Source: Stieleria varia (GTDB lineage Bacteria; Planctomycetota; Planctomycetia; Pirellulales; Pirellulaceae). From it: a stretch of DNA of 64,000 nt. The position numbers and the translations under genes are program-made. The notes under the pieces were generated by a model. It was not told the origin of the DNA and ran no database searches. It saw only the letters and a list, made by a program, of their open reading frames with translations. Below, in pieces: positions 5,371 through 20,172 of the stretch (position 1 is its first letter; each line of letters starts with the position of its first letter). The stretch is taken from the NCBI RefSeq assembly GCF_038443385.1, contig NZ_CP151726.1, positions 4,278,001 through 4,342,000 of the forward strand. Direction: 5' to 3'.

Positions 5371-6310
5371 CCAACCACCGCTCCGCGTGATCTTCGCAAG
5401 AAGACAGAACTCGTATCCTCCGCATCAACCACGAAGTGGTTCAACAGCACAGCCCGGGGTCGCGGCGAAGCCAGCGCACCCCGGGATATCCAACGCAGAA
5501 CACCATTTACCCCAACGGGGTAAGACATCGCTGTCGCGAAACCCACGCACCAACCACCGCTCCGCGTGATCTTCGCAAGAAGACAGAACTCGTATCCTCC
5601 GCATCAACCACGAAGTGGTTCAACAGCACAGCCCGGGGTCGCGGCGAAGCCAGCGCACCCCGGGATATCCAACGCAAAACTATCGACGTGAAACGTCGAC
5701 ATTGTCGTTCGACTCTCCGAGTCGAAAACGCGTCCGAAGCCCCCATCAGCCGCAACGCGATAGCGTCCGGTTCTCCCCCACACACCAACCACCGCTCCGC
5801 GTGATCTTCGCAAAAAGACAGAACTCGTATCCTCCGCACCAACCACGAAGTGATTTAACAACGTAGCCCGGGGTCGCGGCGAAGCCAACGCACCCCGGGA
5901 TATCCAACGCAGAACACCATTTACCCCAACGGGGTAAGACATCGCTGTCGCGAAACCCACGCACCAACCACCGCTCCGCGTGATCTTCGCAAGAAGACAG
6001 AACTCGTATCCTCCGCACCAACCACGAAGTGGTTAAACAACGTAGCCCGAGGTCGCGGCGAAGCCAGCGCACCCCGGGTTATCCAACGCATAACGCCATT
6101 TACCCCAGGGGACGTTCGGACAATAAGTGTCGGGAAACCCACGCACCAACCACCGCTCAGCGTGATCTTCGCAAAAAGACAGAACACGTATTTTCCGCAC
6201 CGACCACGAAGTGGTTCAACAACGTAGCCCGGGGTCGCGGCGAAGCCAACGCACCCCGGGTTAGCCAACGCAAAACGCCATTTACCCCAGCGGGGTAAGA
6301 CATAGCTTCC
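5371..6310. repeat. Five-copy ~180-bp repeat array
   Basis: Units begin ccaaccaccgctc(c/a)gcgtgatcttcgc at about 5371, 5550, 5785, 5964 and 6146. Each contains the hairpins accacgaagtggt, cccggggtcgcgg...caccccggg and taccccaacggggta. Units 2 and 3 are separated by an insertion carrying the gtcgttcgactctcc module. Reading frames across the array are fragmentary and differ between units, so it is treated as non-coding. A diverged inverted relative is at about 29250-29320. Confidence 0.8.
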
Positions 6311-7005: not shown

Positions 7006-7245
7006 TTAGGCAAGTGAAAATCGGCCGTCGTCGGTCAGTGTGAAGACGCACTCTTTGGCCTGATTTGCAACCGTGATATTTCTTGTGTGTCGCCGCATTT
7101 GGGACCGCAGAACGCTCTCGGCATTCTTCGCCTTGAACTCGTAAAGTTCTTTCTCTGCGATGACAGCGTAAATTTCCGCAGCCGTCATCGGCTTGCCAGA
7201 CGCCTTCAAGACGTCTGCGGCGACTTGGTGAATTGACTTTTTCAT
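7006..7245 (-). CDS. Small HARE-HTH (winged-helix) protein, dnd-linked
   Basis: Protein of 79 residues that is essentially one HARE-HTH domain: VAADVLKASGKPMTAAEIY, then a second helix pair, then the wing (FTLTDDGRFSLA). This domain family is a predicted DNA-binding module often joined to DNA modification and restriction proteins. Its ATG overlaps the dndE stop in an ATGA junction, so it is translationally coupled as the fourth gene after dndC-dndD-dndE. It may guide the sulfur-modification proteins to DNA or regulate them. That role is inferred; a solitary HARE-HTH protein is not a standard Dnd component as far as I know. Confidence 0.75.
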   Translation of the reverse strand: MKKSIHQVAADVLKASGKPMTAAEIYAVIAEKELYEFKAKNAESVLRSQMRRHTRNITVANQAKECVFTLTDDGRFSLA

Positions 7246-7625
7246 GCTTTCTCTTCCAACGCAAGATTGATAAGGTCGCCAATATTACCGATCGCCGACG
7301 GTGTCGCCAGATACCCGATTCCGCGATGGAGGTGCAATCGGAACTGTTGAGCGACGGTTTCTTCGTCAGTTCCTAAGCCGTCCTTGAAGCAGCGTGCCTT
7401 AACCAAGGCCCAGTAGAGTTCGTTGAGTTCGCCGCCGAATACCTGCCAACTCATTTCCACATTGCTATCCGCAGGGATGTCGACGACTGTGGGTGGAGAG
7501 GCTTCTTTCATCGAAACTACGAGCGCCCATCGGCACAGAATATTCCATTGACCAATTCCAGTACGGGACTTGATCCGAATCAGCTTGTCCCTTGCCTGAG
7601 ATGAGAGTTTGATTTGCTTAATCAC
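7242..7625 (-). CDS. dndE: DNA sulfur modification protein DndE
   Basis: Protein of 127 residues matching DndE, the small DNA-binding member of the phosphorothioation complex. Conserved stretches include an N-terminal basic segment (IKLSSQARDKLIRIKSRTGI) and the central GELNELYWALVKAR. The C-terminal part (QFRLHLHRGIGYLA) is also present. It begins 8 bp after the dndD stop and overlaps the HARE-HTH gene by 4 bp. Together with the dndC/dndD junction this shows one polycistronic unit. Confidence 0.88.
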   Translation of the reverse strand: MIKQIKLSSQARDKLIRIKSRTGIGQWNILCRWALVVSMKEASPPTVVDIPADSNVEMSWQVFGGELNELYWALVKARCFKDGLGTDEETVAQQFRLHLHRGIGYLATPSAIGNIGDLINLALEEKA

Positions 7626-7633
7626 AACAGTTC

Positions 7634-9640
7634 CTAAACGGCCTCCGCTTCTTCGTGATGCCAGAAGTAGCCTTGTTCAACGATTGTTTGCTTTGTCTTT
7701 TCGTCGTAATTCAGATGGTACGCGCGCGCCACATTGGGCTCCAGTGCTTCGTAGAATGTTTCATCGACCTCCGTGTCAGTTGAAAGAATGATCGTTTGAT
7801 GGCTCGCTGCAGGGAAGTATCGCGTCAACAAGTTCTCGCGATGCATGGCGTCGAGACGAGCCATCGGAGTATCGATGATTGCCGGCAGCCTACGATTCGA
7901 CGCTCGCCCAAGTCCCCATAGAACTGAGATGGCAAACATTTGCTTCTCCCCCTCGGAAAGTCGCTGCTTAGGAATCATCAATCCATCGGAGTCGAGGAGA
8001 GTTATCGAGAAATCCACTGGGTCGATGGAAATCGAACTAACAAGCGACTTCTTGCGGAGCAAATACTGAAATGCTTCGAGAATATTTGCTGAAAGCCGAT
8101 CAATCTTTGCCGCGGTTGATTGCTCAAGAAATACCTTCATCGTATCACGCGTACGATCCGAAAGCTGTGACATTCGTTCTGCATCATCTGAAGCAACTTG
8201 CTCCGCATTTGTGCGAAGGAGCTTCTCCTCGATCTTGCTTTCAACTTCTTCTCGCTCGCGAATTTTCTCATCACACGCTTGCTCAAGACGCTTCAGTTCT
8301 GATTCGGCCTCGGCATGCGCACGAACGGCCGCTTTCAGTTTTTCTGCGACATCCTTTATCTCTGCTTCTTTGGGAGTGGAAGCAAGTTGCCTGCGAATCA
8401 GGTCCAGCTCCGCACTGGTTTGCTCCAAGTCGAATACCAAAGAATCGCCCTGTTTTTTTAGACGTTCCAACTCTGTCGTCATCAACGACGACAAAGCGTT
8501 GCGTGAACCTTCAGACAAATGTATCGAATGTTCAGGCTCCTGAACGTCAGCTCGAAGCTGTCGTCTTTTCGCTTGGACCATTTCAATTGACTCCAAGACA
8601 TTTGCTTGGATCCCATGATCTCTTAGTTCGGATAAAATCGCCTTGTCATGTGAGTCGAGGGCCTCACCAGCCTGCAGCAACTGCTGATATGACCGGCCGT
8701 CCATATCGAACTCGTCAACGGATTTCAACAGATCCGGAATCACTGCCAGAGGCAGGCTACCGCTGGCGAGCCCAATCAAAGAAGACTCGATACCAGCTTT
8801 CTTGACGGCAAGCTCTCTTTTCTTGGCTTCATTATCGTTTCGCTCGTCCCAGTGCTTGCCACCTATGCGAGCGAATCGTTCTTCAGCCTTCGCCAAATCC
8901 TTGGCCGCAATACCAACGCTATTTCGTGCAGCCCCGCAGTCCTGTTTGTGCGACTTCAACTCCTCGCGAATGAGTTCCAGCTCACCTTTCCACTCATCGA
9001 CGGCCTCTCGATCACTGCTGGATATCTGACGTTCGGCGAGCTTCATCTGAACGACCTTCATATCCGCGATCAAACGTTCGGCAAGGTCCAGCCCTAGTAG
9101 GGACTTGATCGCTGATCCCAACGCGTCACTTGTTGATTCGTCGTCAGCAATAAACCGGATCTTTTCGGCATCAAAGAAGAAAAGCTGAGAGACGCCGATC
9201 GGAACAATTTCTTCCACGACGTGATTCCAGTTCTTGGAGAAGTCTGCGTGCTTCGCACCATCGCAATAGACTTCCAGATGTTCCCGAAGAGTCTTCTTAA
9301 CGTTCCAGCGACGTCGGATCTCGTAGATCCGCTCCACACCTTCCGAAACATACTGGAATTTTAGAGATATGGACGCTCCATCTGCAGGATCAACACCCCG
9401 ATGGATGCAGTCCGTCAGGAACTCACCATAGCTCTGGTTTGATCGTTTCGAGCAATTAGCGCGCGAACCATAAAGCGCGAGCAAGATCGAGTCGAAGAAT
9501 GAAGTCTTGCCACCGCCGTTGATCCCACCGACCAAAATGACTGGCTTCGGTTTTCCATTGCGGTGATCGGGACTGAGGTTGAAAGTCTGCTCACCACGGT
9601 AAAGGCAAAAGTTATAGAGGGATAGTTCGAGTAGCTGCAT
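7634..9640 (-). CDS. dndD: DNA sulfur modification protein DndD (SMC-like ATPase)
   Basis: Protein of 668 residues with an ABC/SMC-type split ATPase. Walker A is GGINGGGKTS (residues 38-47). A long charged coiled coil fills about residues 190-480. The signature RLSEGEKQMF and Walker B IIDTPMARLD lie near the C-terminus. DndD supplies ATP hydrolysis during insertion of sulfur into the DNA backbone. Its ATG directly abuts the dndC stop with no spacer. Length and motif order are normal for the family. Confidence 0.92.
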   Translation of the reverse strand: MQLLELSLYNFCLYRGEQTFNLSPDHRNGKPKPVILVGGINGGGKTSFFDSILLALYGSRANCSKRSNQSYGEFLTDCIHRGVDPADGASISLKFQYVSEGVERIYEIRRRWNVKKTLREHLEVYCDGAKHADFSKNWNHVVEEIVPIGVSQLFFFDAEKIRFIADDESTSDALGSAIKSLLGLDLAERLIADMKVVQMKLAERQISSSDREAVDEWKGELELIREELKSHKQDCGAARNSVGIAAKDLAKAEERFARIGGKHWDERNDNEAKKRELAVKKAGIESSLIGLASGSLPLAVIPDLLKSVDEFDMDGRSYQQLLQAGEALDSHDKAILSELRDHGIQANVLESIEMVQAKRRQLRADVQEPEHSIHLSEGSRNALSSLMTTELERLKKQGDSLVFDLEQTSAELDLIRRQLASTPKEAEIKDVAEKLKAAVRAHAEAESELKRLEQACDEKIREREEVESKIEEKLLRTNAEQVASDDAERMSQLSDRTRDTMKVFLEQSTAAKIDRLSANILEAFQYLLRKKSLVSSISIDPVDFSITLLDSDGLMIPKQRLSEGEKQMFAISVLWGLGRASNRRLPAIIDTPMARLDAMHRENLLTRYFPAASHQTIILSTDTEVDETFYEALEPNVARAYHLNYDEKTKQTIVEQGYFWHHEEAEAV

Positions 9641-11338
9641 CTATTCATTCTCCTCAAGGGACTGTTGATCGAAGAGATTTTGCTGAGCCGAGCTCACGTT
9701 CGAAACTTTTGCCCCTGATCTTTTCTTAGACCCTTTTGTGTTCTCAGGTTTGTCTTTTCGTATTGTTCGCAAATCCCGAATTTCTTCCGCACGCTTTTGC
9801 TCGGCGTCACGAGCGGCGAACGCTTCCTCGCCATCGGAAAACCGAGCCGCCTTGAGTCGCTTCTCGATCGCCTCGTATATTCCTGCGCGGCGAGTCATAC
9901 CGCGAAATTCTCTCTCAATGTCCAACAGCTCCGTTTGGAGCTGAAAAAATACGTCGTCCGCACTGCAGATATCTTTGAGCCGATCCCAGTCTTCTCGATC
10001 CAACAATTGATCGTCGCCACGGACTACTGGAAATTCCTCGCCGGTAACTTGCTTGAAGATATCCGGCAACGTGTCATCGTATTCGTGCTTTTCGTAAAGC
10101 CATATCCTGCGAATCTCGTGCATCTCTGCGGTAGAAACCAGTTCTATCTCACGCATCTCCTTCGGACCGTTTTCGCGAATACCTTGCTGGACCTCAAGCA
10201 CTCGTTTGAGCCAATACTCTCGCCAATTCTTACGGTAAGGACCGGGGATCGTCTTGCCGTTAAATAGCTGCACTCGTCCGTCGATCCGCCTGAAGTCCCG
10301 GCGGTTTCGCTCGACCTTGCCACGATTCTCCTTGCTCAGGCGAACTGGCTTTCCCTTTCTGTCGGTCTTACCGAGTTCGGAAATTTCTTTCTTCGTCAAA
10401 CCGATCTGGACAAGCTCTACATCGCGAAGTCCTTCCTCGTCACACGCCAATTCATTTCGGAGATCTAAGAGAGGTTGCATCCAAAATTTTTCATCGTCGT
10501 TCTTAATCATCGCTTCCATGGAGCGATCCTTATCGACGACGGTACAAACCCAACAGCCAAATCGGCTGCTTCCACAGCTAGGCGTCGAAGTATCCAAAAC
10601 GACTGGACATTCGTTGTCGGCGGAAGCTCCCTGGTACATGCCCATCAGCGACTTGTTGGTATGCCCCCAGGGATTCTTTACCTGCAAAAGAAACTGCCAA
10701 ACCTCGTCGTTATTCCAATCCTCGATCGGCGAATAGACAAGCGAGTTCGGGAGCGCAGCATTCGGCGATATGCGGTCCCTATACCGGTGCTTTTCGTGTT
10801 TCTCCATGTTCCGCGCACGTCGCTGGCTCTCTGCCTTGCGCGTGCCCAAAACAAGCATCGCTTCGCCGTTCTCTCTCACCACCTGCCGGATGAAATTGTT
10901 TGACGGATTGATTTTCATCCTCGAAGTACACCAACGGAACTGCGTCGTTGGCTTCGGGTAGCCCCTTCCGATCAGGTTGACCCAAAAGGTGTCCTTCACG
11001 TCTGGTACTAGCTTATGCGGAGTGAGCGGAACGCCTTGCTCAGTGGCCGCTTCTCTCATTTTGGCATGTGACGCATCGACCCAAACCGCGACCAGCGGTT
11101 GCTCGACCAACGTATCCGTCGAGATGACGTGAATCTGCTTCGTTCTTTGCTCGACAGGCAATCGCGAGACGGCTAGCCAAACAAGCTGCAAAACAGCGCT
11201 TGAATCCTTGCCACCGCTATACCCAACGACCCACGGAATTTGATCGGCCAGGTAAAGTTCTTGCACTTCCTCGATCAATTCCGTGATGGCAACCTTCATC
11301 CCTTTGCCGCCGAACGCAATTTGCTTTTCCCGTACCAT
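9641..11338 (-). CDS. dndC: DNA sulfur modification protein DndC (PAPS reductase-like)
   Basis: Protein of 565 residues of the PP-loop/PAPS-reductase family that adenylates the DNA phosphate before sulfur transfer. The PP-loop SGGKDS is at residues 41-46. Five cysteines, Cys137, Cys244, Cys255, Cys262 and Cys265 (CGSSRFGCWVC), fit the iron-sulfur cluster of DndC. The gene heads the dndC-dndD-dndE-HARE unit and is transcribed away from dndB across a 106-bp space. No dndA cysteine desulfurase is in the window; an IscS-type enzyme encoded elsewhere must supply sulfur if the system works. Confidence 0.93.
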   Translation of the reverse strand: MVREKQIAFGGKGMKVAITELIEEVQELYLADQIPWVVGYSGGKDSSAVLQLVWLAVSRLPVEQRTKQIHVISTDTLVEQPLVAVWVDASHAKMREAATEQGVPLTPHKLVPDVKDTFWVNLIGRGYPKPTTQFRWCTSRMKINPSNNFIRQVVRENGEAMLVLGTRKAESQRRARNMEKHEKHRYRDRISPNAALPNSLVYSPIEDWNNDEVWQFLLQVKNPWGHTNKSLMGMYQGASADNECPVVLDTSTPSCGSSRFGCWVCTVVDKDRSMEAMIKNDDEKFWMQPLLDLRNELACDEEGLRDVELVQIGLTKKEISELGKTDRKGKPVRLSKENRGKVERNRRDFRRIDGRVQLFNGKTIPGPYRKNWREYWLKRVLEVQQGIRENGPKEMREIELVSTAEMHEIRRIWLYEKHEYDDTLPDIFKQVTGEEFPVVRGDDQLLDREDWDRLKDICSADDVFFQLQTELLDIEREFRGMTRRAGIYEAIEKRLKAARFSDGEEAFAARDAEQKRAEEIRDLRTIRKDKPENTKGSKKRSGAKVSNVSSAQQNLFDQQSLEENE

Positions 11339-11444
11339 CGCTGAAATAACTTATCGCCAGAGGAAACCCCGGAAGTGCCCGCTGCCACTTCCGTTTAGAG
11401 CCTAGAGACTTCCAGCGAATAGGTCAATTATGTAGAATGCAGAA
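11339..11444. promoter_or_regulatory. dndC/dndB divergent intergenic region with palindromic operator candidate
   Basis: This 106-bp space must contain both divergent promoters. At 11370-11393 it holds a perfect inverted repeat, CGGAAGTG, an 8-base spacer, then CACTTCCG. DndB acts as a transcriptional repressor in characterised dnd loci, so the palindrome is a plausible DndB or autoregulatory site. No clear Shine-Dalgarno sequence precedes dndB. The operator call is inference from position and symmetry. Confidence 0.5.
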
Positions 11445-12479
11445 ATGGGAAGAAAACGAACAACACGCCGAAAGACAACTGGCTTTACCTATAGCCTGCC
11501 AGCGATCCGTTCGTTCCAAGCTGGTCAGCCCTATTTCACAACGGCGATCCCATTCGGAGTTCTCGCGAAACTGCTTGAACCGAACGCAATCAATGCCGGC
11601 GTGGAGCCACTAGATCGAGATCGAACGAGGGCGATCTCTCAATACATAACCAAATACGAGGAAACGTACGTTCTTCCTGCAGTCACGCTGTCGACCGCGG
11701 GAGACTGCGATTTCGTGTCGCTATGCGATTCTGATACGGGCGTCACGGCTGGAACGCTAATGCTGCCAATGGACGCATCATTGAAAATTCATGACGGCCA
11801 GTATCGCCTCCACGCGATTGCCAGAACCGTAGCCGAAGAACCTCACCTCGCCAGTGAAACTCTTCCTGTGGTGATTTATGCCGACCGCAACGGATGCGAC
11901 AGACGCTTTGGAGACATCAAGGCGAATCAACGCAAGTCAGGTCGCGCGGAACGGATCGTCAGCGATTCCGCCGACCCAATCGCCAACGTCACTCGCGAAG
12001 TCATCGCGAATGTCTCCGCGTTCACCGATGCGATCGAAATGGTAAAGACGACGATCTCCAACCGTTCAAGAAACCTGTTTACGTTCAGCGCGTTGTACCA
12101 AGCCAATGAAATTCTGCTTGCAGCGCAGCAAGATCAGTCGCTGGAAGACCAAGCCGGGTTCGCGGTCGCGTTCTGGCAGACCGTCCAAGACGCAATGCCT
12201 GATTGGACGTCGGATACGCCGCGCGTCGAACTCCGTAAGCAAACTGTCCACGCGCACGGCGTAGCTTTGTGTGCCATCGCAACGGCTGGCGCTGTCATTG
12301 TTGACCGTTACCCCAAGACTTGGACACGCAGGCTCGCCAAGCTTAAAAGCATCGACTGGTCTCGCAGCAACACTAGGGTGTGGGAGGGAAAAGTAATGCT
12401 CGGCGGGCGAATGACAAAGTCCGCTGCTTCCATTGATCTCACTGCGAAGGTCTTACTACGCCTACTTGGGAGTGACTGA
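11445..12479 (+). CDS. dndB: DNA sulfur modification protein DndB (DGQHR family)
   Basis: Protein of 344 residues with the DGQHR-type motif HDGQYRLHAI (residues 116-125) and the downstream segment DIKANQRKS typical of DndB. DndB is not required for sulfur insertion; it affects modification frequency and represses the dnd operon in studied systems. It is divergent from dndC, the normal arrangement. The N-terminus is basic (RKRTTRRKT), which fits DNA contact. The Cys-rich gene follows 63 bp downstream on the same strand. Confidence 0.88.
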   Translation: MGRKRTTRRKTTGFTYSLPAIRSFQAGQPYFTTAIPFGVLAKLLEPNAINAGVEPLDRDRTRAISQYITKYEETYVLPAVTLSTAGDCDFVSLCDSDTGVTAGTLMLPMDASLKIHDGQYRLHAIARTVAEEPHLASETLPVVIYADRNGCDRRFGDIKANQRKSGRAERIVSDSADPIANVTREVIANVSAFTDAIEMVKTTISNRSRNLFTFSALYQANEILLAAQQDQSLEDQAGFAVAFWQTVQDAMPDWTSDTPRVELRKQTVHAHGVALCAIATAGAVIVDRYPKTWTRRLAKLKSIDWSRSNTRVWEGKVMLGGRMTKSAASIDLTAKVLLRLLGSD

Positions 12480-12542
12480 TGAATCGCTTGTTGAGTCGTT
12501 ACCGCAGGGGGTCAAAAAACAATCGTGGCTTGGAGAAGAGGT

Positions 12543-12959
12543 ATGGTTGAAAAGAGGCAAAAAGTTTGCGGTGTCTGCGAGCGGACACTTGGGAAATCCG
12601 AAGTCGACATTTGCCGGGACTGCAAGTGCAAGGGTCCTCCATCGTGGAGCGATTGTAATGGCCCAATTGATTTCCGCTATAGAACAATGCGATACAGAGA
12701 CGCGACCGAATTGACCACGCAAGCTCAGAAACAGGCTGCATCAAAAGCCATTCAGCGTGAACTATCGCGATCCATCCGCGCATTGAAGTTGGTGCGAAGA
12801 GCTCGTTATCGCCTTCCAGAAAATTTCGACGAACTAACCGCTTCGTGGCTATCCAGCATCTTGTCCGCGTTGCCAACTGAGTCGTGGAAAAGAGTAACGA
12901 ACGAAATAAAGTTGGCGAATGACGTTAGTCTCGCTGCAAATCGCGACGAGATTCCATAG
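12543..12959 (+). CDS. Small Cys-rich protein of unknown function between dndB and HNH genes
   Basis: Protein of 138 residues that I do not recognise. The N-terminus has CGVC (9-12) and CRDCKC (24-29), a pattern fitting a small zinc-binding knuckle. The remainder is basic and helical (SIRALKLVRRARYRLPENF) and ends in an acidic tail. The ATG at 12543 is preferred over the GTG at 12525 because a Shine-Dalgarno-like ggagaagagg lies just before it. The gene sits between dndB and two HNH nucleases on the same strand, so a role in the phosphorothioation locus is likely but unknown. Confidence 0.6.
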   Translation: MVEKRQKVCGVCERTLGKSEVDICRDCKCKGPPSWSDCNGPIDFRYRTMRYRDATELTTQAQKQAASKAIQRELSRSIRALKLVRRARYRLPENFDELTASWLSSILSALPTESWKRVTNEIKLANDVSLAANRDEIP

Positions 12960-13007
12960 AATTCCGAACAAGCCGAAGAAACTTGAATCCGAAACGAGAA
13001 TGCTTTT

Positions 13008-13907
13008 GTGACAAACCAACTTGCCGGAATAATCAAAAAGCTCGCGAAGCTGCGCGTCGATCGGTCGAAAGGTGTTGCGCCGCACAAACCACTATTGCTC
13101 CTCGTCATGTTAGAACTTGCAAAGTCCGGTCTGCTGGTGACACAAGAGCTTTCACTAACGCCCGATATCGCCTTCCGCTTTTCCGTTTACTGGTCAATTG
13201 TTGCGCACCGGCGCACTCAACCACCTGACGTTAGGCTGCCCTTTCACCACACACGGTCGTCAAAACTCTGGACAACGCTCAAAGCTGACGGCACTGAATC
13301 TATGCACTGCGACTCTACAACCACAATTAGGTTGTCTGACGAATTTTTCGTAGCCCTTCAATCAGCTGATTTCCGGCAGGCTGCCGGGTACACCTTAATC
13401 TCAAACTATTTCGAGCATGCTGAGCAGGTTGCACTCTATGAGCTTACTGGAATCGAACCACCGGAAGACTCTACCGTCCTCGACGACCTCGCGATCACAG
13501 CCGACAAGGAGGCCCGCGCCGAAGGTCGCACGGCTCGGTTTCGAGTTGATGTCGTCGCCGCCTATTGCCATACCTGTGCACTAACGGGATATCGCATCAC
13601 TACAATCACCGGTCACTCGATCGTCGACGCCGCGCACATACACCAGTTCGCCCGTTCCCGAAATGACGATCCCCAGAACGGAATCGCCCTCTGCAAGAAC
13701 GCCCACTGGCTCTTCGACCTCGGACTCTGGAGTATCGACGATGACTACCGAGTCATCGTTTCCAAGGACGCCTTTGACGAAGCGTGCCCAACGCAGGAAT
13801 CGCTCGCTTCGATGGCCGGAAAGCAACTCATTCTCCCACGGGACGAACGACTCTGGCCGATGGCCAAGAATCTGGCTTGGCACCGCTCAAAGTGCTTTGT
13901 CGCATGA
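13008..13907 (+). CDS. HNH endonuclease with diverged sulfur-binding-type N-terminal domain
   Basis: Protein of 299 residues. The N-terminal region carries APHKPLLLLVML (24-35) and RLPFHHTRSSKLW (76-88). This is the same layout as the sulfur-binding domain of phosphorothioate-dependent McrA-type enzymes, with less conserved pocket residues than in the next gene. The C-terminal HNH domain has Cys187-x2-Cys190, DAAH (207-210), Asn224 and His233 (CKNAHW). It starts with GTG, and its stop overlaps the next start (ATGA), so the two nucleases are translationally coupled paralogues. It may be a type IV enzyme for sulfur-marked DNA or a partner subunit; the substrate is inferred. Confidence 0.75.
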   Translation: MTNQLAGIIKKLAKLRVDRSKGVAPHKPLLLLVMLELAKSGLLVTQELSLTPDIAFRFSVYWSIVAHRRTQPPDVRLPFHHTRSSKLWTTLKADGTESMHCDSTTTIRLSDEFFVALQSADFRQAAGYTLISNYFEHAEQVALYELTGIEPPEDSTVLDDLAITADKEARAEGRTARFRVDVVAAYCHTCALTGYRITTITGHSIVDAAHIHQFARSRNDDPQNGIALCKNAHWLFDLGLWSIDDDYRVIVSKDAFDEACPTQESLASMAGKQLILPRDERLWPMAKNLAWHRSKCFVA

Positions 13908-14797
13908 ATAATGAAGTTCTTGACCGCTTCCGAAAATTGAAAGTCTGGCAACGAGGCGATGAACGAGCACCGCACAAGCCGCTGCTTCTCTTGCTCGCGT
14001 TCGGTCGATACGTCGACGGTGCCGATCGTCTCATCCCCTACGCCGAATTTGATCGACCGCTCCAAGAATTGCTTGAACTATTCGGTCCACCACGAAAGTC
14101 GTACCACAGCGAATATCCGTTTTGGCGACTGCAAAACGACGGCGTTTGGGACCTCGAAAACGCCGACGCAGTCGAGAAACGACATGGACAGACTGACGCG
14201 AAAAAGAGCGAACTAATTCGGCATGGAGTTGCGGGCGGATTGACGGCCGAGCTATTTGAGGCAATCAACCAAGATAGAACGCTGATAAAGCAAATCGCGA
14301 CCGAACTGCTGGAAAAGAGTTTCCCGGATTCACTTCATCAAGATATTCTCGAATCTGTCGGATTGCTCGACGCAATTGAATTCACGCAACGACGCAAACG
14401 TGATCCAAAGTTTCGCGAGCTGGTCCTGCAAGCATACGAATATCGCTGTGCAATCTGTGGACTTGATCTGCGAATGGGGGGGCGCGAGTTAGGACTCGAA
14501 GCCGCTCACATCAAGTGGCACCAAGCACACGGCCCCGACACAGTCGAAAACGGTTTATCGCTTTGTTCGCTACATCACAAGTTGTTCGATCGCGGGGCGA
14601 TTGGCCTCACCGATGAACACATTTTGCTGGTATCTGAATCGGTGCATGGGACCGAAGGAATGGCTAACTGGCTTCTCACCCACCATGGACATGCGATTCG
14701 CAAACCACAGCGGCCTGACTATCTCCCATCGTCCAGCTTCGTGGGCTGGCACCGTAAAGAAGTGTTCCGGTCGCCGCCGCGCAGTGTTTTGGTCTAG
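13904..14797 (+). CDS. SBD-HNH endonuclease, phosphorothioate DNA-reading type
   Basis: Protein of 297 residues closely matching the ScoMcrA-like layout. The N-terminal sulfur-binding domain includes APHKPLLLLLAFGR (22-35), PYAEFDRPL (45-53) and SEYPFWRLQNDGVW (69-82). The HNH domain has Cys182-x2-Cys185, EAAH (199-202), Asn216 and His224-His225. In characterised members the domain binds sulfur-modified DNA through a hydrophobic pocket that includes a Tyr-Pro pair, and the HNH cuts nearby. The ATG at 13904 overlaps the upstream stop by 4 bp; the longer in-frame extension is a shadow of the first HNH gene. Such enzymes normally conflict with dnd, so co-location with dndBCDE is notable. Confidence 0.85.
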   Translation: MNNEVLDRFRKLKVWQRGDERAPHKPLLLLLAFGRYVDGADRLIPYAEFDRPLQELLELFGPPRKSYHSEYPFWRLQNDGVWDLENADAVEKRHGQTDAKKSELIRHGVAGGLTAELFEAINQDRTLIKQIATELLEKSFPDSLHQDILESVGLLDAIEFTQRRKRDPKFRELVLQAYEYRCAICGLDLRMGGRELGLEAAHIKWHQAHGPDTVENGLSLCSLHHKLFDRGAIGLTDEHILLVSESVHGTEGMANWLLTHHGHAIRKPQRPDYLPSSSFVGWHRKEVFRSPPRSVLV

Positions 14798-14840: not shown

Positions 14841-15722
14841 CTAGCCGAAATTCGGAAACTGTTTACCAATCAAAATTTCCTGTTCGAGTCCCCGATGATG
14901 AAGGTCAAATAATTCAGTCATCCGCAGAACATTTGGAACTTCGTGTCGATTGCAGATTCTCTTCAATACGTTGAGGTTCGACTGAATCAATGATCTCTTT
15001 CCATACTTCAAAATTAGTTCATTGATGTCATCCGGGACATGCAAACAAACTCGAGCTCCACACGCGTCGTAGAGTCTGATGTATTCGTCGATGCCAACCG
15101 GATCATAGTCTCCCCAGTGCAGAATCTGACAGGATTGCATCGGGGGCGATGCCAGCCATCGAAGCAATCGGGACGACATTCGTCCTGCGCTGTAGATCGC
15201 AAGATCAGTTCCAGGCAACACTAATTCGTAACGCCAGAATGTGTCTGCGTTCTCGATGACCGTAATCGTTCCTGAAAACTCCCAGTCAGAATCGTCAGTT
15301 ATCGAAATTGCTGCACAACCAGCAATCTCGGATAGCTCACTGATCGAGACCGACGTAACGCTGGTAGTTCGCTGAATGACAATGCCCGGTTTAATTGTCC
15401 GAAGCAGCACCGCCTCGGCAATCGAGCCTGCGAACGCCTTTGCGTCGCCGCGCAATTCGACCGCTGACGCGTGATCCTGGACAAGATCCTCGCTAAAGTT
15501 GAGACCCTGGGGAAGTTCGTCGTGTACCAGCGCGTCGAACGCAGCCACGCTGGAGATACGCAGTCTACGACCGCGGCCACTCTTACCCCGTTCCCACTGA
15601 ACGGCACCACAGGCATGCAGACGGTTGACCAGAACTTGTGTTCCTTTTCGCAGCGACGACTCAGCAACACCATCGGTTTGCTCTTGCAGCTTTCGTAGAA
15701 GCGTTATCTCATCGCTACGCAC
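14841..15722 (-). CDS. jetD: Wadjet-type JetD-like protein (Toprim fold), probably orphaned
   Basis: Protein of 293 residues from a GTG at 15722 that overlaps the SMC-like stop. The longer frame up to 15935 only reads antisense-like sequence of the upstream gene. The C-terminal half resembles JetD: a Toprim-like strand ILHWGDYDPVGIDEY and the terminal LEQE motif. The N-terminal region looks like winged-helix arms but is shorter than in typical JetD proteins of about 390-400 residues. JetD is the nuclease subunit of Wadjet, which cuts small circular DNA together with an SMC complex. With the SMC partner truncated and JetA/JetB absent, the protein is probably not functional in defence. Confidence 0.65.
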   Translation of the reverse strand: MRSDEITLLRKLQEQTDGVAESSLRKGTQVLVNRLHACGAVQWERGKSGRGRRLRISSVAAFDALVHDELPQGLNFSEDLVQDHASAVELRGDAKAFAGSIAEAVLLRTIKPGIVIQRTTSVTSVSISELSEIAGCAAISITDDSDWEFSGTITVIENADTFWRYELVLPGTDLAIYSAGRMSSRLLRWLASPPMQSCQILHWGDYDPVGIDEYIRLYDACGARVCLHVPDDINELILKYGKRSLIQSNLNVLKRICNRHEVPNVLRMTELFDLHHRGLEQEILIGKQFPNFG

Positions 15723-17150
15723 GCTCGGTCTCCGTTGCCTCGACCATCTGGGATTTCTCAGCGTGGTAGGTTTGCGTGGTCTCGATGTAAAACTGACCAC
15801 TCGCCTCGTGATTTTGCGGGTATTGGCCAAGGCTGTAAACGGTGACACGCGGATGGGCGAGCGGTTCCAGGTGCAAACGGGGATCGGCAGTAATGGGTAG
15901 AATTCCTTGACCAACCGCAAGCTGAGCGGTGGCACTTAGGTTTCCGTCATCGAGTTCGCCCACACCGTCGATATAAAAGAACATGCGGTAGTCACTGTCG
16001 GGCGCGATCGCACGAATAAGCTGAATGAAAATCATCGCTTTGACTGTCATTCCGGTTCCGGTGCTACCAATCTCGTCCAGCGAACCTGCGGCACGCCACG
16101 AGCCACCAGTTTCTTGGATGCGAATCTTCAGTTCAAACAGAGATTCAATTTCAATGACCTGAGAATCCTCGATCATTCGCTTGAGTTTCTTCTTGGCTTG
16201 TTCAATTTGCTCTGGATCATTGAACAGACTATCCGCAGCTGCTAAAGCTTCAATCGAGTTGAACAGATCGGAAACCTCGACGACCGAAATTTCCACCGCC
16301 GCAAGGTTGCTGACTTGAAATTTTCGCAAACCACTTTGCAGTTTCTCGACAGCGCGTTTGATGCGTTCGATTCCATCGACAATTCCCTTCATTCGAGCAC
16401 CAAGCGGCTTGAAGAGCTGGTCCCACGCGTTTTGAACGGAGGCTTCCATCTGTTCGGCTGCAAAAGCTTCCTCAGTCAACGCATTCCATTCTTCATCACG
16501 ATCATTGAAATATCGCGGTTCTGATTTCGTTTTCCGTGCGGTGTCGGTGATTCGACGTTCCAAGCCAGATAGTTCGTGTTCGATTGGTGCCCGCGTCTTT
16601 AGAACACCGGTCAGCTCTTTGAGCTTCTTGACTACCTGTTTCGAGGCGTCCTGGCACTGTTGTTCATCAGAGTCGCTGAACTCATCTGGTCGAGACACTC
16701 TCGACTCTGGAAGAATTAATCCACAGTTACGGAACTGATCATTAAACGCAACAACCGCATCGTTGAGTTGCCGCCGTGTGTCCGTTAGCCCTACGTTTCG
16801 ACGACGGATCCGTTCAAGGTTTTCACTCAATTTTTCAACGAGTTGGTCAGCATTCTTTACCCTCGCATCGGCGTCATCAAAATTCCCTTGCGCGGTGGCA
16901 AGTTCGTTCTGCAGAAGTTCGCGTTTCGACCAGTCGTCTAAGTACGCGTCGTATTGCCTCAACTCACCCTCCTTCTCAGCTCTCGCTTTTTGCAGCACAG
17001 CCAATTTGCATCTCGCGGCTTCTTGATCTTCGGCGGTATCGAGCCGTGATTTCTCGGCCTCCAATCGTTTGCGATCAAGCCGAACTTGCTCCTTCAGTCG
17101 ATGGCTCGAAACTCCTTGCTGTTCAACCAGACAGCGCAGGTCAAAGGCAT
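15715..17150 (-). pseudogene. 5'-truncated SMC-like ATPase (JetC-like C-terminal part)
   Basis: About 470 codons of an SMC-type protein: coiled coil, then a signature-like IGSTGTGMTVKAM and Walker B-like FFYIDGVGELDD, ending with a few residues beyond HAEKSQM. No N-terminal Walker A half exists. The frame stays open only to 17238, and the sequence beyond about 17150 reads better on the other strand, so a deletion or recombination has removed the 5' part and any jetA/jetB. In the Walker B region the usual Glu after Asp is Gly, which may be family-specific or a decay mark. It overlaps the JetD-like gene as in Wadjet operons. Confidence 0.7.
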
Positions 17151-17300
17151 AAGGTTTCCGTTGACCCCCAGGTTTTGACCGTTCAACTCGACGTCCCAGA
17201 CGACGTTGACATCTATGTGAATGGAGAAATGGTAGACCTCAGTGATTTCCAAGGTCAAACGTCAGCGGAGTTCCCCATTGACCTTCATGACTACTCATAG
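17150..17300 (+). pseudogene. Possible C-terminal gene fragment of unknown origin
   Basis: The plus-strand frame reads VQLDVPDDVDIYVNGEMVDL and continues to a stop at 17300. It looks like real protein (balanced composition, amphipathic pattern) rather than a shadow. It abuts the truncated SMC-like gene tail to tail and has no start of its own. I do not recognise the family. It is best seen as debris at a recombination junction. Confidence 0.3.
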
Positions 17301-17415
17301 CCAACTGAGACACTTTTGCCACCCACCGGTTGAGCACACCGTCCTCAGGAAAAACAAAAAACGCTTTCAGGATATTTCTCCTCTGCGGGCGTTTCGGCTT
17401 CGTTCGTCGTTCGAC

Positions 17416-17757
17416 TTACAGTTCGATGGATTCGACTTCGCGGACGAAGCGGGATGCGTCGTTTTCTAGGAATGACGAGACGACGTTGAACACGGCGTCA
17501 CTGAAGCCGCCGATGTTCAGGATGTCGTTTCGCTCGGGTGCCTAGCTGGTCCCGTAGGGTTGGATGTCGATGCAGACGGGCTTAGGATCGTCGATGCCGT
17601 GTCCACGTTGGGTCTTCTTGAACTTCTCCCATTGGGTAATCACGCCAGTGGAACCGCTTTGGCCGTAGCCGCATCGTCGCCCCGTGGAGATCCAGCTTTC
17701 GTTGTCGCTGAGCCGGCGACGGCTTGCGCCGCGTAGCGTGTGTTGGCCACATACCAC
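17416..17757 (-). pseudogene. C-terminal remnant of a TROVE/vWA (Ro60-like) protein with internal stop
   Basis: Minus-strand sequence reads LSDNESW, then TQWEKFKKTQRG, PVCIDIQPYGTS, a TAG stop (17542-17544), and in the same frame [18 protein letters not shown], ending EVESIEL-stop at 17416. This is the conserved end of bacterial TROVE-domain proteins, whose C-terminal half is a von Willebrand A domain; the TAG sits where Gln is expected. Everything N-terminal to the SDNESW segment is missing or scrambled. Full-length relatives bind small Y-type RNAs. This copy cannot make a working protein. Confidence 0.65.
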
Positions 17758-18009
17758 TCACCGACAAGACGAAGTGCGACGGACAGTCCCTTCCTGTGTC
17801 TACTTGTCTAGCTGCTGTTGCTTGCAGCCACTTCAAAGCGCCTCGCCAAACCCGTAGACAAGAACGTTGTGCTTGTAGTCGGTTTCAGCGTTTTCTCCTG
17901 TCTCTGATTGATCGCTGCTCCCAAGGCCGGGGCGTTCACCGAAGTGATGATTATTCGATATGATTGCTGGTTCTTACTGTCGCAAAATGATTCGTAGCAG
18001 GACACAGCA
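17758..18009. other. Intergenic debris between TROVE remnant and DUF262 gene
   Basis: No intact gene. One short minus-strand stretch reads like protein (YKHNVLVYGFGEAL followed by a stop, around 17830-17875) and may be another gene remnant. The region must also contain the promoter of the DUF262 gene starting at 18010, but no clear -35/-10 pair is asserted. Confidence 0.35.
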
Positions 18010-20172
18010 GTGGAAACACAAGTTCGGACACCTCAATTGATCTTTATGCACCCACAGCGATTGGTGGTGCCCTTGTTTCAGCGGCCGTATGTTTGGAACG
18101 AGGAGAACCAGTGGGAACCGCTCTGGATGGACGTTGTGCGGATGGCTACCCGAGTATTGGAACAACCGGCCGCCAAGCATTATCCACACTTCCTCGGTGC
18201 AGTCGTACTGCAGCAAACGCCCAATGCCGCCGGCACGATGCAGGAGCGGACGATCATTGACGGCCAGCAGCGACTGACGACATTGCAGTTGCTTTTCGAC
18301 GCTTTGCACGCGGAATTGGTCGCCGCCGATGCTACCGCGCCAGCAATGCGTCTCGAAACATTGATCGTCAATGCGGAGCCATTCCGCGTGAATCCGGAGG
18401 ATCAATTCAAAGTCTGGCCAACGAACCGAGACCGACCCGCATTTAACGCCGTGATGTCGGCTCCGCTACCGCTGGACTATGCAGCCGTCGGATTCGACGA
18501 CCAGCGAATGGTGGGCGCACACCGGTATTTTTCCCAGTCAGCCGCGGCTTGGCTACGCGAAGCCGGGCCCGAAAACATTCTTTCTCGTGCGTCCGCCATT
18601 GAAACTGCTGTACGTGACCTGCTCCAGATCGTTGTGATTGATCTAAACGCTGAGGAGAACGCCCAAGAGATTTTTGAGACCTTGAACGCACGTGGTGCAT
18701 CGCTAACTGCGGCAGACCTGATCAAGAACTTTATCTTTCAACGCCTGATGGAAACAGGAGCAGATGTCGAGAAGGCGTACATTCAATATTGGCGACATTT
18801 TGAATCAGCGTTTTGGGAGAAAGAGATCAGCGTTGGACGATCCTTCTATCCAAGATCTGCGATTTTTTTGAACCATTGGTTGATCTCAAAAACGGGCGAG
18901 GAGGTCGTCGCGCGCGAAGTCTTTTCCCGATTCAAGCTCTACGCGGACGAATCGGGCGAGCCGATGGGCACACTCTTGGTGCAAATCAAAGCTGCCGCTG
19001 ATGTCTATCGCGACTTCACGGAGCGAGGCGGTGTGCTGACAGGATCGATCGACCGAGTTGGCTTATTTGCTTACCGAACAGGAGTTTTGGAAAGCGAAGT
19101 GGTTAAGCCGCTAGTCATGTTCCTGCTCGATCCACAGTTGGCGGCCATTCCCAGCGAGCAGCTGTTGAAGTCGCTTGAAGTCATCGAAAGCTGGATGGTT
19201 CGTAGAATGTTGATGAGAGCGACGACGAAGAACTACAACTTAGTCATTGCCGAATTGATCCGGCATCTACGTGAACAAAGCCGTGAGGAAATCGGCGATG
19301 CAATCGAGAGTTTTCTGCTGAAGCAAGACAGCAATAGTCGCTATTGGCCTGACGACAACGAGATTCGTGAAGAACTCAAAGTGTTGCCCGTTTACCGACG
19401 TTTAGGGCGTGGACGTTTGCGAATGGTACTCGAGGCAATAGAAGATCATTTGCGAGGCTGGTCGGGGCCGAATGCGGGGCTTGGGAATGAGAGGGTCTCG
19501 CGAGGCAAGCTGGCGATTGAGCATGTCATGCCACGAAAATGGACGACACATTGGCCGTTGCCCGGCGGATTGAGAAGCGAAGGCGAACGAGAAGCCTTGA
19601 TCCATACGATCGGCAATTTGACTTTGCTTACTTCGAGACTCAACAGCAAGGTGTCGAATGGCCCCTGGCTAGGAGAAAGCGGGAAACGTCAGGGATTGGA
19701 TGGGCACGACGTGCTCTTTATCAACCGCGAGCTACTGAAGACAGCCAAGGAGTCGTGGAATGAGTCAATGATTCGTGCTCGCAACGAAGCCCTTGCTGAT
19801 CTGATCATTAAAGTTTGGACGACGCCGGAGGGACATCAATCCGGCTTCGGAAACCAAGTTGTTCGACCACGACACCGAGTCGACTTGAGTGACCTGATCG
19901 CAGCAAAGGTTCTGCAAACCGGTATCACTCTCATACCCAGACGGAAAAAGTACCGTAATCAGACGGGCGTACTTCTTTCGGATGGGCGTATTGAAGTCGC
20001 GGGGCAATTTCATTCGAGCCCGACTGAAGCAGCGAAGGCGATTACCGGCGCTGGATCGATCAACGGTTGGTATTTCTTCTTGGTCGAGGAGAAACCCAAA
20101 CGTTCACTTAAAGACGTCCGTATCGAGTACCTGGAATCAATCGCGGCGGACGAGAGCGACGACGATGATTGA
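18010..20172 (+). CDS. DUF262-DUF1524 (GmrSD-like) nuclease with C-terminal RAMA domain
   Basis: Protein of 720 residues. The N-terminal DUF262 domain has FQRPYVWN (23-30) and IIDGQQRLTT (82-91), a ParB-like NTP-using motif set. The DUF1524 HNH domain follows near residues 500-550 (IEHVMPRKW, then HTIGNLTLL and LNSKVSN). The last ~90 residues look like a RAMA modified-DNA reader (SDLIAAKVLQTGITL, then VLLSDGRIEVAGQ, then SINGWYFF). GmrSD-type enzymes are type IV restriction factors attacking modified phage DNA. The reader suggests recognition of modified bases. It is a single intact gene downstream of decayed defence genes; the exact target is unknown. Confidence 0.85.
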   Translation: METQVRTPQLIFMHPQRLVVPLFQRPYVWNEENQWEPLWMDVVRMATRVLEQPAAKHYPHFLGAVVLQQTPNAAGTMQERTIIDGQQRLTTLQLLFDALHAELVAADATAPAMRLETLIVNAEPFRVNPEDQFKVWPTNRDRPAFNAVMSAPLPLDYAAVGFDDQRMVGAHRYFSQSAAAWLREAGPENILSRASAIETAVRDLLQIVVIDLNAEENAQEIFETLNARGASLTAADLIKNFIFQRLMETGADVEKAYIQYWRHFESAFWEKEISVGRSFYPRSAIFLNHWLISKTGEEVVAREVFSRFKLYADESGEPMGTLLVQIKAAADVYRDFTERGGVLTGSIDRVGLFAYRTGVLESEVVKPLVMFLLDPQLAAIPSEQLLKSLEVIESWMVRRMLMRATTKNYNLVIAELIRHLREQSREEIGDAIESFLLKQDSNSRYWPDDNEIREELKVLPVYRRLGRGRLRMVLEAIEDHLRGWSGPNAGLGNERVSRGKLAIEHVMPRKWTTHWPLPGGLRSEGEREALIHTIGNLTLLTSRLNSKVSNGPWLGESGKRQGLDGHDVLFINRELLKTAKESWNESMIRARNEALADLIIKVWTTPEGHQSGFGNQVVRPRHRVDLSDLIAAKVLQTGITLIPRRKKYRNQTGVLLSDGRIEVAGQFHSSPTEAAKAITGAGSINGWYFFLVEEKPKRSLKDVRIEYLESIAADESDDDD

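Follow-up and report, generated by a model that had tools for sequence, protein, structure and literature searches.

Tested nucleases that combine a sulfur-binding domain (SBD) with an HNH domain prefer DNA carrying phosphorothioate (PT) marks, and several are promiscuous with Mn2+ (Lutz 2020, PMC7461809). In that study, less than 3.6% of the predicted PT-dependent SBD-HNH enzymes were near dnd genes; such pairings were treated as exceptions and about 65 cases were left unresolved. A later count found nucleases with the architecture SBD(wHTH)+SRA+HNH at the Dnd loci of 698 taxa, including 197 that also have DndFGH, and Dnd-linked SBD nucleases were proposed to be alternative restriction components, with suicide action as an alternative (Rakesh 2024, PMC10853773). 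How a PT writer and PT-cutting nucleases coexist in one cell is the question addressed by the locus that we describe here from Stieleria varia (Planctomycetota, Pirellulaceae). It lies in a stretch of 64,000 nucleotides (hereafter the window), positions 4278001-4342000 of a one-contig genome of 9,719,866 bp (contig NZ_CP151726.1), and combines dndB, dndC, dndD and dndE with two different SBD-HNH nuclease genes, HNH1 and HNH2. We find that the pairing of dnd genes with SBD-HNH genes recurs and is not due to chance. Although it looks self-destructive, it is probably a working defence arrangement under shared control and not an accident.

The gene order proposed in an initial annotation, with dndB divergent from dndC-dndD-dndE and followed by two HNH genes, is confirmed by family profiles. 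The minus strand carries dndC (9641-11338; 565-aa sulfurtransferase; TIGR03183, 648.9 bits, cut-off 290.4), dndD (7634-9640; 668-aa ABC ATPase; TIGR03185, 565.5 bits, cut-off 245.85; PADLOC DndD 6e-210) and dndE (7242-7625; 127 aa; TIGR03184, 118 bits, cut-off 71.85; Pfam DndE 1.5e-39). Read by eye, DndC contains the P-loop SGGKDS, and DndD the Walker A motif GGINGGGKTS, the signature LSEGEKQ and the Walker B motif IIDTPMARLD. DndC is 39% identical to that of E. coli H240 and 49% to that of a Streptomyces plasmid. On the plus strand follow dndB (11445-12479; 344-aa ParB/DGQHR-type regulator; PF14072, 250.7 bits, cut-off 29.1; PADLOC DndB 2.5e-78), which is below the NCBIfam DndB equivalog cut-off (245 vs 328 bits), orfX (12525-12959; 144 aa with a cysteine-rich N-terminus), the diverged SBD-HNH gene HNH1 (13008-13907; 299 aa) and the canonical SBD-HNH gene HNH2 (13904-14797; 297 aa). 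The gaps between these four genes are 45, 48 and -4 bp, and the start codon of HNH2 overlaps the stop of HNH1 (ATGA); this ATG at 13904 is the start of HNH2, not the GTG at 13784 given by the caller of open reading frames (ORFs). The locus was previously delimited as 7006-14797 and orfX was overlooked; the end of this span stands, whereas the locus begins only at 7242 with the end of dndE, positions 7006-7241 holding none of the genes. All four dnd genes are intact, with every dnd ORF in the window full length, which rules out decayed dnd genes; the sequence thus gives no sign of the inactive dnd genes that had been considered as an objection.

No DndF, DndG or DndH is present within the window, as previously reported, and DndH (TIGR03237) has no match in the whole genome by a search that gives E. 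coli H240 at 1208 bits. TIGR03238, which we take to be the DndF model, also has no match in the genome, in a search with no positive control scored. A dndFGH cluster elsewhere as the true effector is rejected on the absence of DndH, where the control worked; the DndF search was uncontrolled and DndG was not searched. The desulfurase family has ten matches in the genome (best 349.6 bits), none of which exceeds the DndA cut-off of 480 and none of which lies in the locus.

Judged by its sequence, HNH2 is a full member of the PT-DNA restriction family. It reaches 376.2 bits against NF045808 ('phosphorothioated DNA-binding restriction endonuclease'; cut-off 180), matches the PDB sequence of ScoMcrA (7e-8), and its AlphaFold model (pLDDT 88) has ScoMcrA (5zmo) as the best Foldseek match (TMt 0.82). 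HNH1 reaches 106.7 bits against NF045808, below the cut-off, and is classed only as an SBD-HNH relative (Pfam HNH_2 3.8e-12). The top Foldseek matches of its AlphaFold model (AF2, pLDDT 85) are the HNH parts of VcaM4I and TagI, and it also matches SBDHga (8h0l, TMt 0.66-0.73) and SprMcrA (7ccj, 0.67-0.70). A profile built from HNH1 only (A3) matches SBDHga 8h0l at 9.4e-9, compared to 0.089 for the single sequence; the alignments behind the structure models (A1 and A2) mix the HNH1 and HNH2 families. According to these models, both proteins have the sulfur-binding fold. The sulfur-binding-type N-termini noted initially are thus supported for HNH2 by NF045808, the ScoMcrA match and the 5zmo fold, and for HNH1 only by family profile and fold. 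An SRA/SAD domain was not found in HNH1 or HNH2 by Pfam (HNH_2 only), and the best Foldseek matches of HNH2 are SBD-only chains followed by HNH parts. The two proteins are about 25% identical and form two separate clades, which excludes a recent duplication.

The sulfur pocket of ScoMcrA consists of H116, R117, Y164 and P165 (PMC6224610). HNH2 has the matching residues H24, K25, Y71 and P72, which are 99-100% conserved in 116 relatives, and HNH1 has H26, K27, L77 and P78, of which H26, K27 and P78 are 98-100% conserved in 109 relatives. The lid position is Tyr in HNH2, as in ScoMcrA and SprMcrA (PMC7470945), and Leu or Met in near HNH1 relatives; the E. coli EcoWI-type protein has Met. The catalytic residues are H210, N224 and H233 in HNH1 and H202, N216 and H225 in HNH2, and this His-Asn-His set is kept in 42/42 aligned rows. 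With its score below the family cut-off, a lid that has Leu or Met instead of Tyr, and its presence in dnd-less loci, HNH1 might suggest that the nucleases target another base or phage mark and that the SBD fold has been reused. We consider this very unlikely: H26, K27 and P78 are nearly invariant, and in ScoMcrA the mutations P165N, R117A and R117G abolish binding, whereas R117K is harmless and Y164M strengthens it (PMC6224610).

To what extent HNH2 is associated with dnd can be seen among 241 genomes of the window's family, 13 of which have DndC. Close HNH2 orthologs (62-100% identity) occur in four genomes, belonging to four genera, and all four have DndC within about 15 kb (Fisher 5e-6). 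Including a 43% relative, the count is 4/5 (2.5e-5; 3/4 and 4e-4 with the own genome removed), and for all nine matches at E<=1e-20 it is 6/9 (5e-7; 6e-6 with the own genome removed); these Fisher values are guides only, as genomes are not independent draws. HNH2 adjoins dnd genes in the window and in genome G501 (locus L004), where the order dndB-HNH1-HNH2 recurs at 55-80% identity. In G576, an HNH2 that is 71% identical to that of the window lies about 10 kb from DndC, within a one-strand run of dnd genes. This run starts with a dndA-like gene, dndB-C-D-E, a gene of no assigned family, TIGR04095 and an ABC ATPase, and ends with a TIGR04062-like gene, HNH2, an AIPR-like gene and TIGR04096 (dnd_rel_methyl), the DndA, TIGR04095 and TIGR04062 scores being below their own cut-offs. 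HNH2 is thus predicted to lie once inside a dnd operon. G419 has the same order, with HNH2 (NF045808, 362 bits) about 15 kb from DndC and, by eye, an apparent transposase-bearing insertion ahead of it. The Rosistilla-type run at L151:25-18885 brings HNH2 together with dndB-E, genes for a DndA-like desulfurase and a TIGR04095-like restriction helicase, a DndD-like ABC ATPase gene, an AIPR-like gene and one for a dnd-related methyltransferase.

More distant relatives vary in their company. Relatives at 33-35% identity in G462 and G603 co-occur with DndC only, with no linkage seen. HNH2-type genes without dnd are present in G291 (51%; genome without DndC) and on a Methylibium plasmid stretch, and in L011 both HNH2 (54%) and HNH1 adjoin a truncated DndD, the genome having no DndC match. 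A possible further tandem is found in G351, where an HNH gene directly precedes an HNH2-type gene (46%; L109:1249-3232) and dndC-D-E lie on another contig (L110). Database matches to both proteins come from contigs of equal length (4181, where orfX is matched as well, and 3253), which suggests two further HNH1-HNH2 pairs. Relatives of orfX precede HNH1 in L002 and are found as a fragment in L003, and orfX is not present in L004; it has five database matches, own entry included, and two of the remaining four come from contigs equal in length to that of an HNH1 match.

The earlier premise that enzymes of this type normally exclude dnd from a genome is too strong, given the four of four HNH2 orthologs with DndC, E. 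coli HNSQ2209 and the 698 taxa reported (PMC10853773). On the chromosome of E. coli HNSQ2209 (L174, NZ_CP137737.1), dndBCDE and dptFGH are accompanied by an EcoWI-type gene at 4444509, matched at 98.3% across 99% of the query. Of 5426 E. coli genomes, 234 have EcoWI-type matches and 204 have dndC, and HNSQ2209 is the only record with both among the matches listed (60 of 235 and 60 of 204).

In a tree of 42 rows, HNH2 shares its dnd linkage with the four rows closest to it (5/5; SH-aLRT 94, branch not starred), with L011 among these five having a truncated DndD only. With dnd linkage as a label, the tree requires 12 changes compared to a shuffled mean of 14.3 (77/500 shuffles as low), and starred branches show at least 8 switches of linkage. 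Linkage is thus labile over the whole tree and only the HNH2 sub-branch is uniform. The tree leaves out HNH1 rows that are broken, incomplete or located at the end of a contig (L006, L008, L019-L024 and L161), L030 (no start listed) and the remaining matches of the phylum and family searches. The lability without clear clustering would fit chance neighbours in a defence island, where type IV nucleases landed beside an inert or unrelated dnd operon. So would the GC content, which is 0.50-0.54 over about 7.5-22.5 kb vs 0.54-0.60 in the flanks, as expected of an acquired island, and the JetD-like and DUF262 genes nearby. We nevertheless regard chance as quite improbable in view of the HNH2 linkage in four genera, the order recurring in L004 and the full-length dnd ORFs of the window.

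Writer and nuclease genes seem to have been exchanged as blocks. DndC, DndD and DndE of the window are 95, 93 and 94% identical to those of G620 and 93, 88 and 97% to those of G550, but both loci have a different dndB (33%) and no HNH1 or HNH2 match. On the other hand, dndB, HNH1 and HNH2 are 55, 80 and 79% identical to L004, and dndB, orfX and HNH1 are 61, 64 and 90% identical to L002, whose contig ends inside HNH1; the DndC of L002 and L004 is 60-61% and the DndD 44% identical to the window, and the DndE of L004 is 61% identical. Since the close relatives differ between the two blocks, dndCDE and the dndB-nuclease block have recombined. Furthermore, the dndEDC/dndB layout is repeated in G513, but there a ResIII-type helicase takes the position of the nucleases, and from these sequences the effector slot looks exchangeable.

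The two arms share a divergent control region of 106 bp between dndC and dndB (11339-11444), which contains the inverted repeat GGAAGTG-N8-CACTTCC (11371-11392). The repeat has one match in the 64 kb and 0 in 100 shuffles. It occurs in 8/173 fetched loci, many of which contain no dndB promoter; these reduce to four separate sites, located upstream of dndB in the window, L002, L004 and L012, and in the latter three the arms are the same and the spacers different. Upstream of dndB in G513 we find GGAAGTT-N8-AACTTCC. Since Salmonella DndB binds TACG-N10-CGTA palindromes in its own promoter (PMC4507180), it is a fair guess by analogy that the repeat is a candidate DndB operator.

This arrangement could point to suicide, with the nucleases cutting the host's own PT-DNA once infection lifts the control by DndB, as an abortive defence. 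An action of that kind was suggested by Rakesh et al. (PMC10853773), and the tight co-directional run from dndB to HNH2 and the conserved repeat in its control region would agree with it. However, dndCDE share that control region with the nucleases, so that writer and cutter would rise together, and relatives of HNH1 and HNH2 are also found without dndB. We thus consider suicide rather improbable.

Whether the nucleases depend on a writer can be assessed from the distribution of HNH1. An HNH1-seeded scan resulted in 23 loci in 22 genomes. A dndB, C, D or E match is present in 11/23 loci, counted within the fetched stretches, some of them on short contigs; L024, which has only weak pieces of DndD, is left out of the count. 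DndC is matched in 11/22 genomes, 10 of them above the cut-off. The dnd-linked HNH1 genes come from Planctomycetota, Verrucomicrobiota and Armatimonadota; others are plasmid-borne, in one species each of Chloroflexota and Cyanobacteriota. Within the window's family, 6/22 HNH1-positive genomes have DndC (Fisher 3e-4; 2e-3 with the own genome removed) and 16/22 do not; the 22 include fragments or split HNH1 genes (G462, G493, G498, G552, G622) and one 30% relative (G466). We conclude that HNH1 prefers the company of dnd but does not require it.

Intact HNH1 without a DndC match is present in the one-contig genomes G574, G612 and G617 and in G551 (Ssp-type writers were not searched); the former three have no dnd match in the 15-16 kb around HNH1. 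In addition, an intact HNH1-type gene stands beside shortened dnd genes in L011, L015, L018, L112 and L113. It is preceded by a cut-short DndC in L015 and L113 and by a half-length DndD in L018 and L112, and these four loci have no dndB or dndE match nearby. Metagenome contigs can mislead; however, G122 (L112) consists of three contigs and G049 (L113) belongs to the same genus. HNH1 is split in G462 and L021 despite a full-length DndC match in those genomes. Compact cassettes in which dndC (in some a half-length dndD) immediately precedes an intact HNH1-type gene, and which lack any dndE or dndB match in their vicinity, are observed in several phyla (L013:880-3187, L015:2824-4841, L018:7348-10882, L112:5901-9219); these could be decaying loci or a minimal system.

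Retention of HNH1 after loss of the writer is easier to reconcile with activation by PT than with restraint by PT, and HNH1 genes that are intact without DndC or beside shortened dnd genes speak against host sulfur as the sole restraint on the nuclease. A nuclease restrained in that way should do harm in such cells, as DndFGH and DndI do in Salmonella without PT (PMC11662687). The same observation bears on the options originally offered for this locus: nucleases tuned away from the host's pattern or held in check fit better, whereas sulfur marks that control the nucleases fit less, given the intact HNH1 genes just described. Such sulfur-gated restriction, where the SBD reads the host's PT as self, the HNH domain is kept off or leaves, and unmarked phage DNA is cut, has been proposed for DndI and SspE, and for Dnd-linked SBD nucleases by Rakesh et al. 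(PMC10853773). It would be a more striking result than the explanation that we favour, and it is in line with the position in the effector slot without DndH and with HNH2 inside the dnd gene run of G576. As tested SBD-HNH enzymes prefer PT-DNA and several are promiscuous with Mn2+ (PMC7461809), and as HNH1 persists without DndC, we hold this reading to be doubtful.

Some HNH1 genes have other neighbours. A protein of about 320 aa, PD-(D/E)xK-like by eye, adjoins HNH1 in three dnd-less loci (L164:8348-9319, L166:6232-7236, L168:6949-7965) and is a possible HNH1 partner; in L004 (2142-3098), where it has no Pfam match, it lies beyond the dnd genes. At L014:5411-10891, without dnd, an 818-aa ORF (GHKL-type ATPase-like by eye), a 675-aa ORF and an HNH1-type gene follow each other in the same direction with short gaps.

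Taken together, we tentatively favour PT-activated nucleases that are blind to the sulfur context of their host and co-controlled with the writer. Here, dndCDE would put sulfur marks on the host DNA, and dndB, orfX, HNH1 and HNH2 would form the divergent arm of the dnd locus, governed by a common control region to which DndB probably binds. The two HNH proteins would be sulfur-activated (PT-dependent) nucleases in the effector slot that is usually filled by other restriction genes. The host would be spared as the readers mismatch the sulfur context written by its own Dnd, and also as DndB-linked control keeps writer and reader in step. Their targets would be DNAs that bring in another sulfur pattern, for instance competing dnd elements or PT-bearing plasmids and phages. 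We favour this explanation because the HNH2 family includes tested PT-DNA cutters (PMC7461809) and the pocket is conserved, and because of the HNH2-DndC linkage, the HNH1 genes kept without DndC, the exchangeable slot, the recombination of blocks and the shared inverted repeat. What we computed are the genes and folds, the conservation of pocket, catalytic residues and inverted repeat, and the recurrence of the linkage, and we infer the PT-dependent cutting, the mismatch to the host motif, the control by DndB and the target.

Several points weigh against this explanation. The mismatch between reader and host motif is hypothetical. The base-contact region of HNH2, R-x-x-[QN]-x-D, is similar in loci whose DndE, the proposed target-recognition subunit (PMC10853773), is 33% and 61% identical to that of the window, whereas a tuned-away reader would be expected to differ. 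An enzyme directed purely at rivals has no need to share an operon with dnd, and Bsp48385I, a dnd-linked homolog, retained only low activity whether or not PT was present (PMC7461809). The absence of a writer is judged by DndC alone, without a search for Ssp-type writers. Finally, some distant dnd-linked HNH1 relatives show altered pocket letters: the variants are H-Q in Picosynechococcus and Y-K in Chlorohelix, both being within what the Y-Q of SprMcrA allows. A distant row from Nostoc has N-K with Gln before Pro. The frame of G361 is without the H-K stretch, and this gene may be damaged.

As a further possibility, which we consider unlikely, HNH1 and HNH2, as products of overlapping genes, could cooperate as a sulfur-gated effector whose two readers recognise different PT contexts, with a single promoter region controlled by DndB. 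The host pattern would then license or restrain the pair and a wrong or missing pattern would be cut. In this scheme the Leu/Met lid of HNH1 corresponds to that of the E. coli EcoWI-type protein and the Tyr lid of HNH2 to that of ScoMcrA and SprMcrA. Across this locus and its relatives, the same nuclease block is accompanied by different writers, by a shortened writer or by no DndC writer at all, which makes the question of self-protection directly testable on a natural set.

The surroundings of the locus contain a gene that was overlooked initially (18010-20172, plus strand), 3.2 kb beyond HNH2. It encodes a DUF262-DUF1524 pair (N- and C-terminal parts of GmrSD; PF03235 3.2e-34, PF07510 7.5e-24), which is common to DndI and SspE, and a C-terminal RAMA domain (PF18755 1.9e-14; PADLOC 'Orf5' 6.6e-91); it matches the structures of SspE and other DUF262 proteins only over short stretches of sequence. 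It is a possible candidate for a third effector or an independent type IV enzyme, with putative membership in the Dnd locus. Between HNH2 and this gene, the minus strand carries JetD-like and SMC-like coiled-coil ORFs (14841-17064) with weak Wadjet/MksF matches. These may be a remnant, as positions 17094-17970 hold no minus-strand ORF above 84 aa. On the other side, a tandem repeat of 182 bp in 2.9 copies (5777-6307) separates upstream housekeeping genes from dndE.

When comparing the locus to known systems, we find that its general idea, SBD nucleases at Dnd loci, is already published (PMC10853773), and the new effector arrangement claimed initially stands only as a variant, the dndB-linked tandem of two different readers. 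In the open-access literature (preprints and supplementary tables, where the exact loci may be listed, being outside this scope) we found no description of a tandem of two different SRA-less SBD-HNH genes with dndB, nor of a clade-level linkage of HNH2 to dnd. The Dnd-linked wHTH(SBD)+SAD(SRA)+HNH nucleases (Rakesh, Aravind and Krishnan 2024), as described there, are similar in that an SBD-type HNH enzyme is located in a Dnd locus, mostly without DndFGH; here, in contrast, no SRA is found and two different SBD-HNH genes form an overlapping tandem in line with dndB. Bsp48385I (Lutz 2020) is likewise encoded beside dndA-E, but its locus has dndFGH, one SBD-HNH gene is described for it, and its activity is low regardless of PT. 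HNH2 shares domain order, length, pocket and HNH residues with EcoWI and SprMcrA (NF045808); those tested enzymes act on foreign dnd, whereas HNH2 and its close orthologs are dnd-linked, and HNH1 is below the family cut-off. The IscS-DndBCDE-DndI system resembles the locus in combining dndBCDE with a PT-related HNH effector without need of DndFGH, and shows that dndBCDE can work with other effectors; however, DndI is a DUF262-DUF1524 protein with an ATPase, and HNH1 and HNH2 show neither domain. Lastly, SspABCD-SspE also pairs a PT-sensing nuclease, silent without PT, with its own PT writer, but differs in its writer and in its unrelated DUF262 reader.

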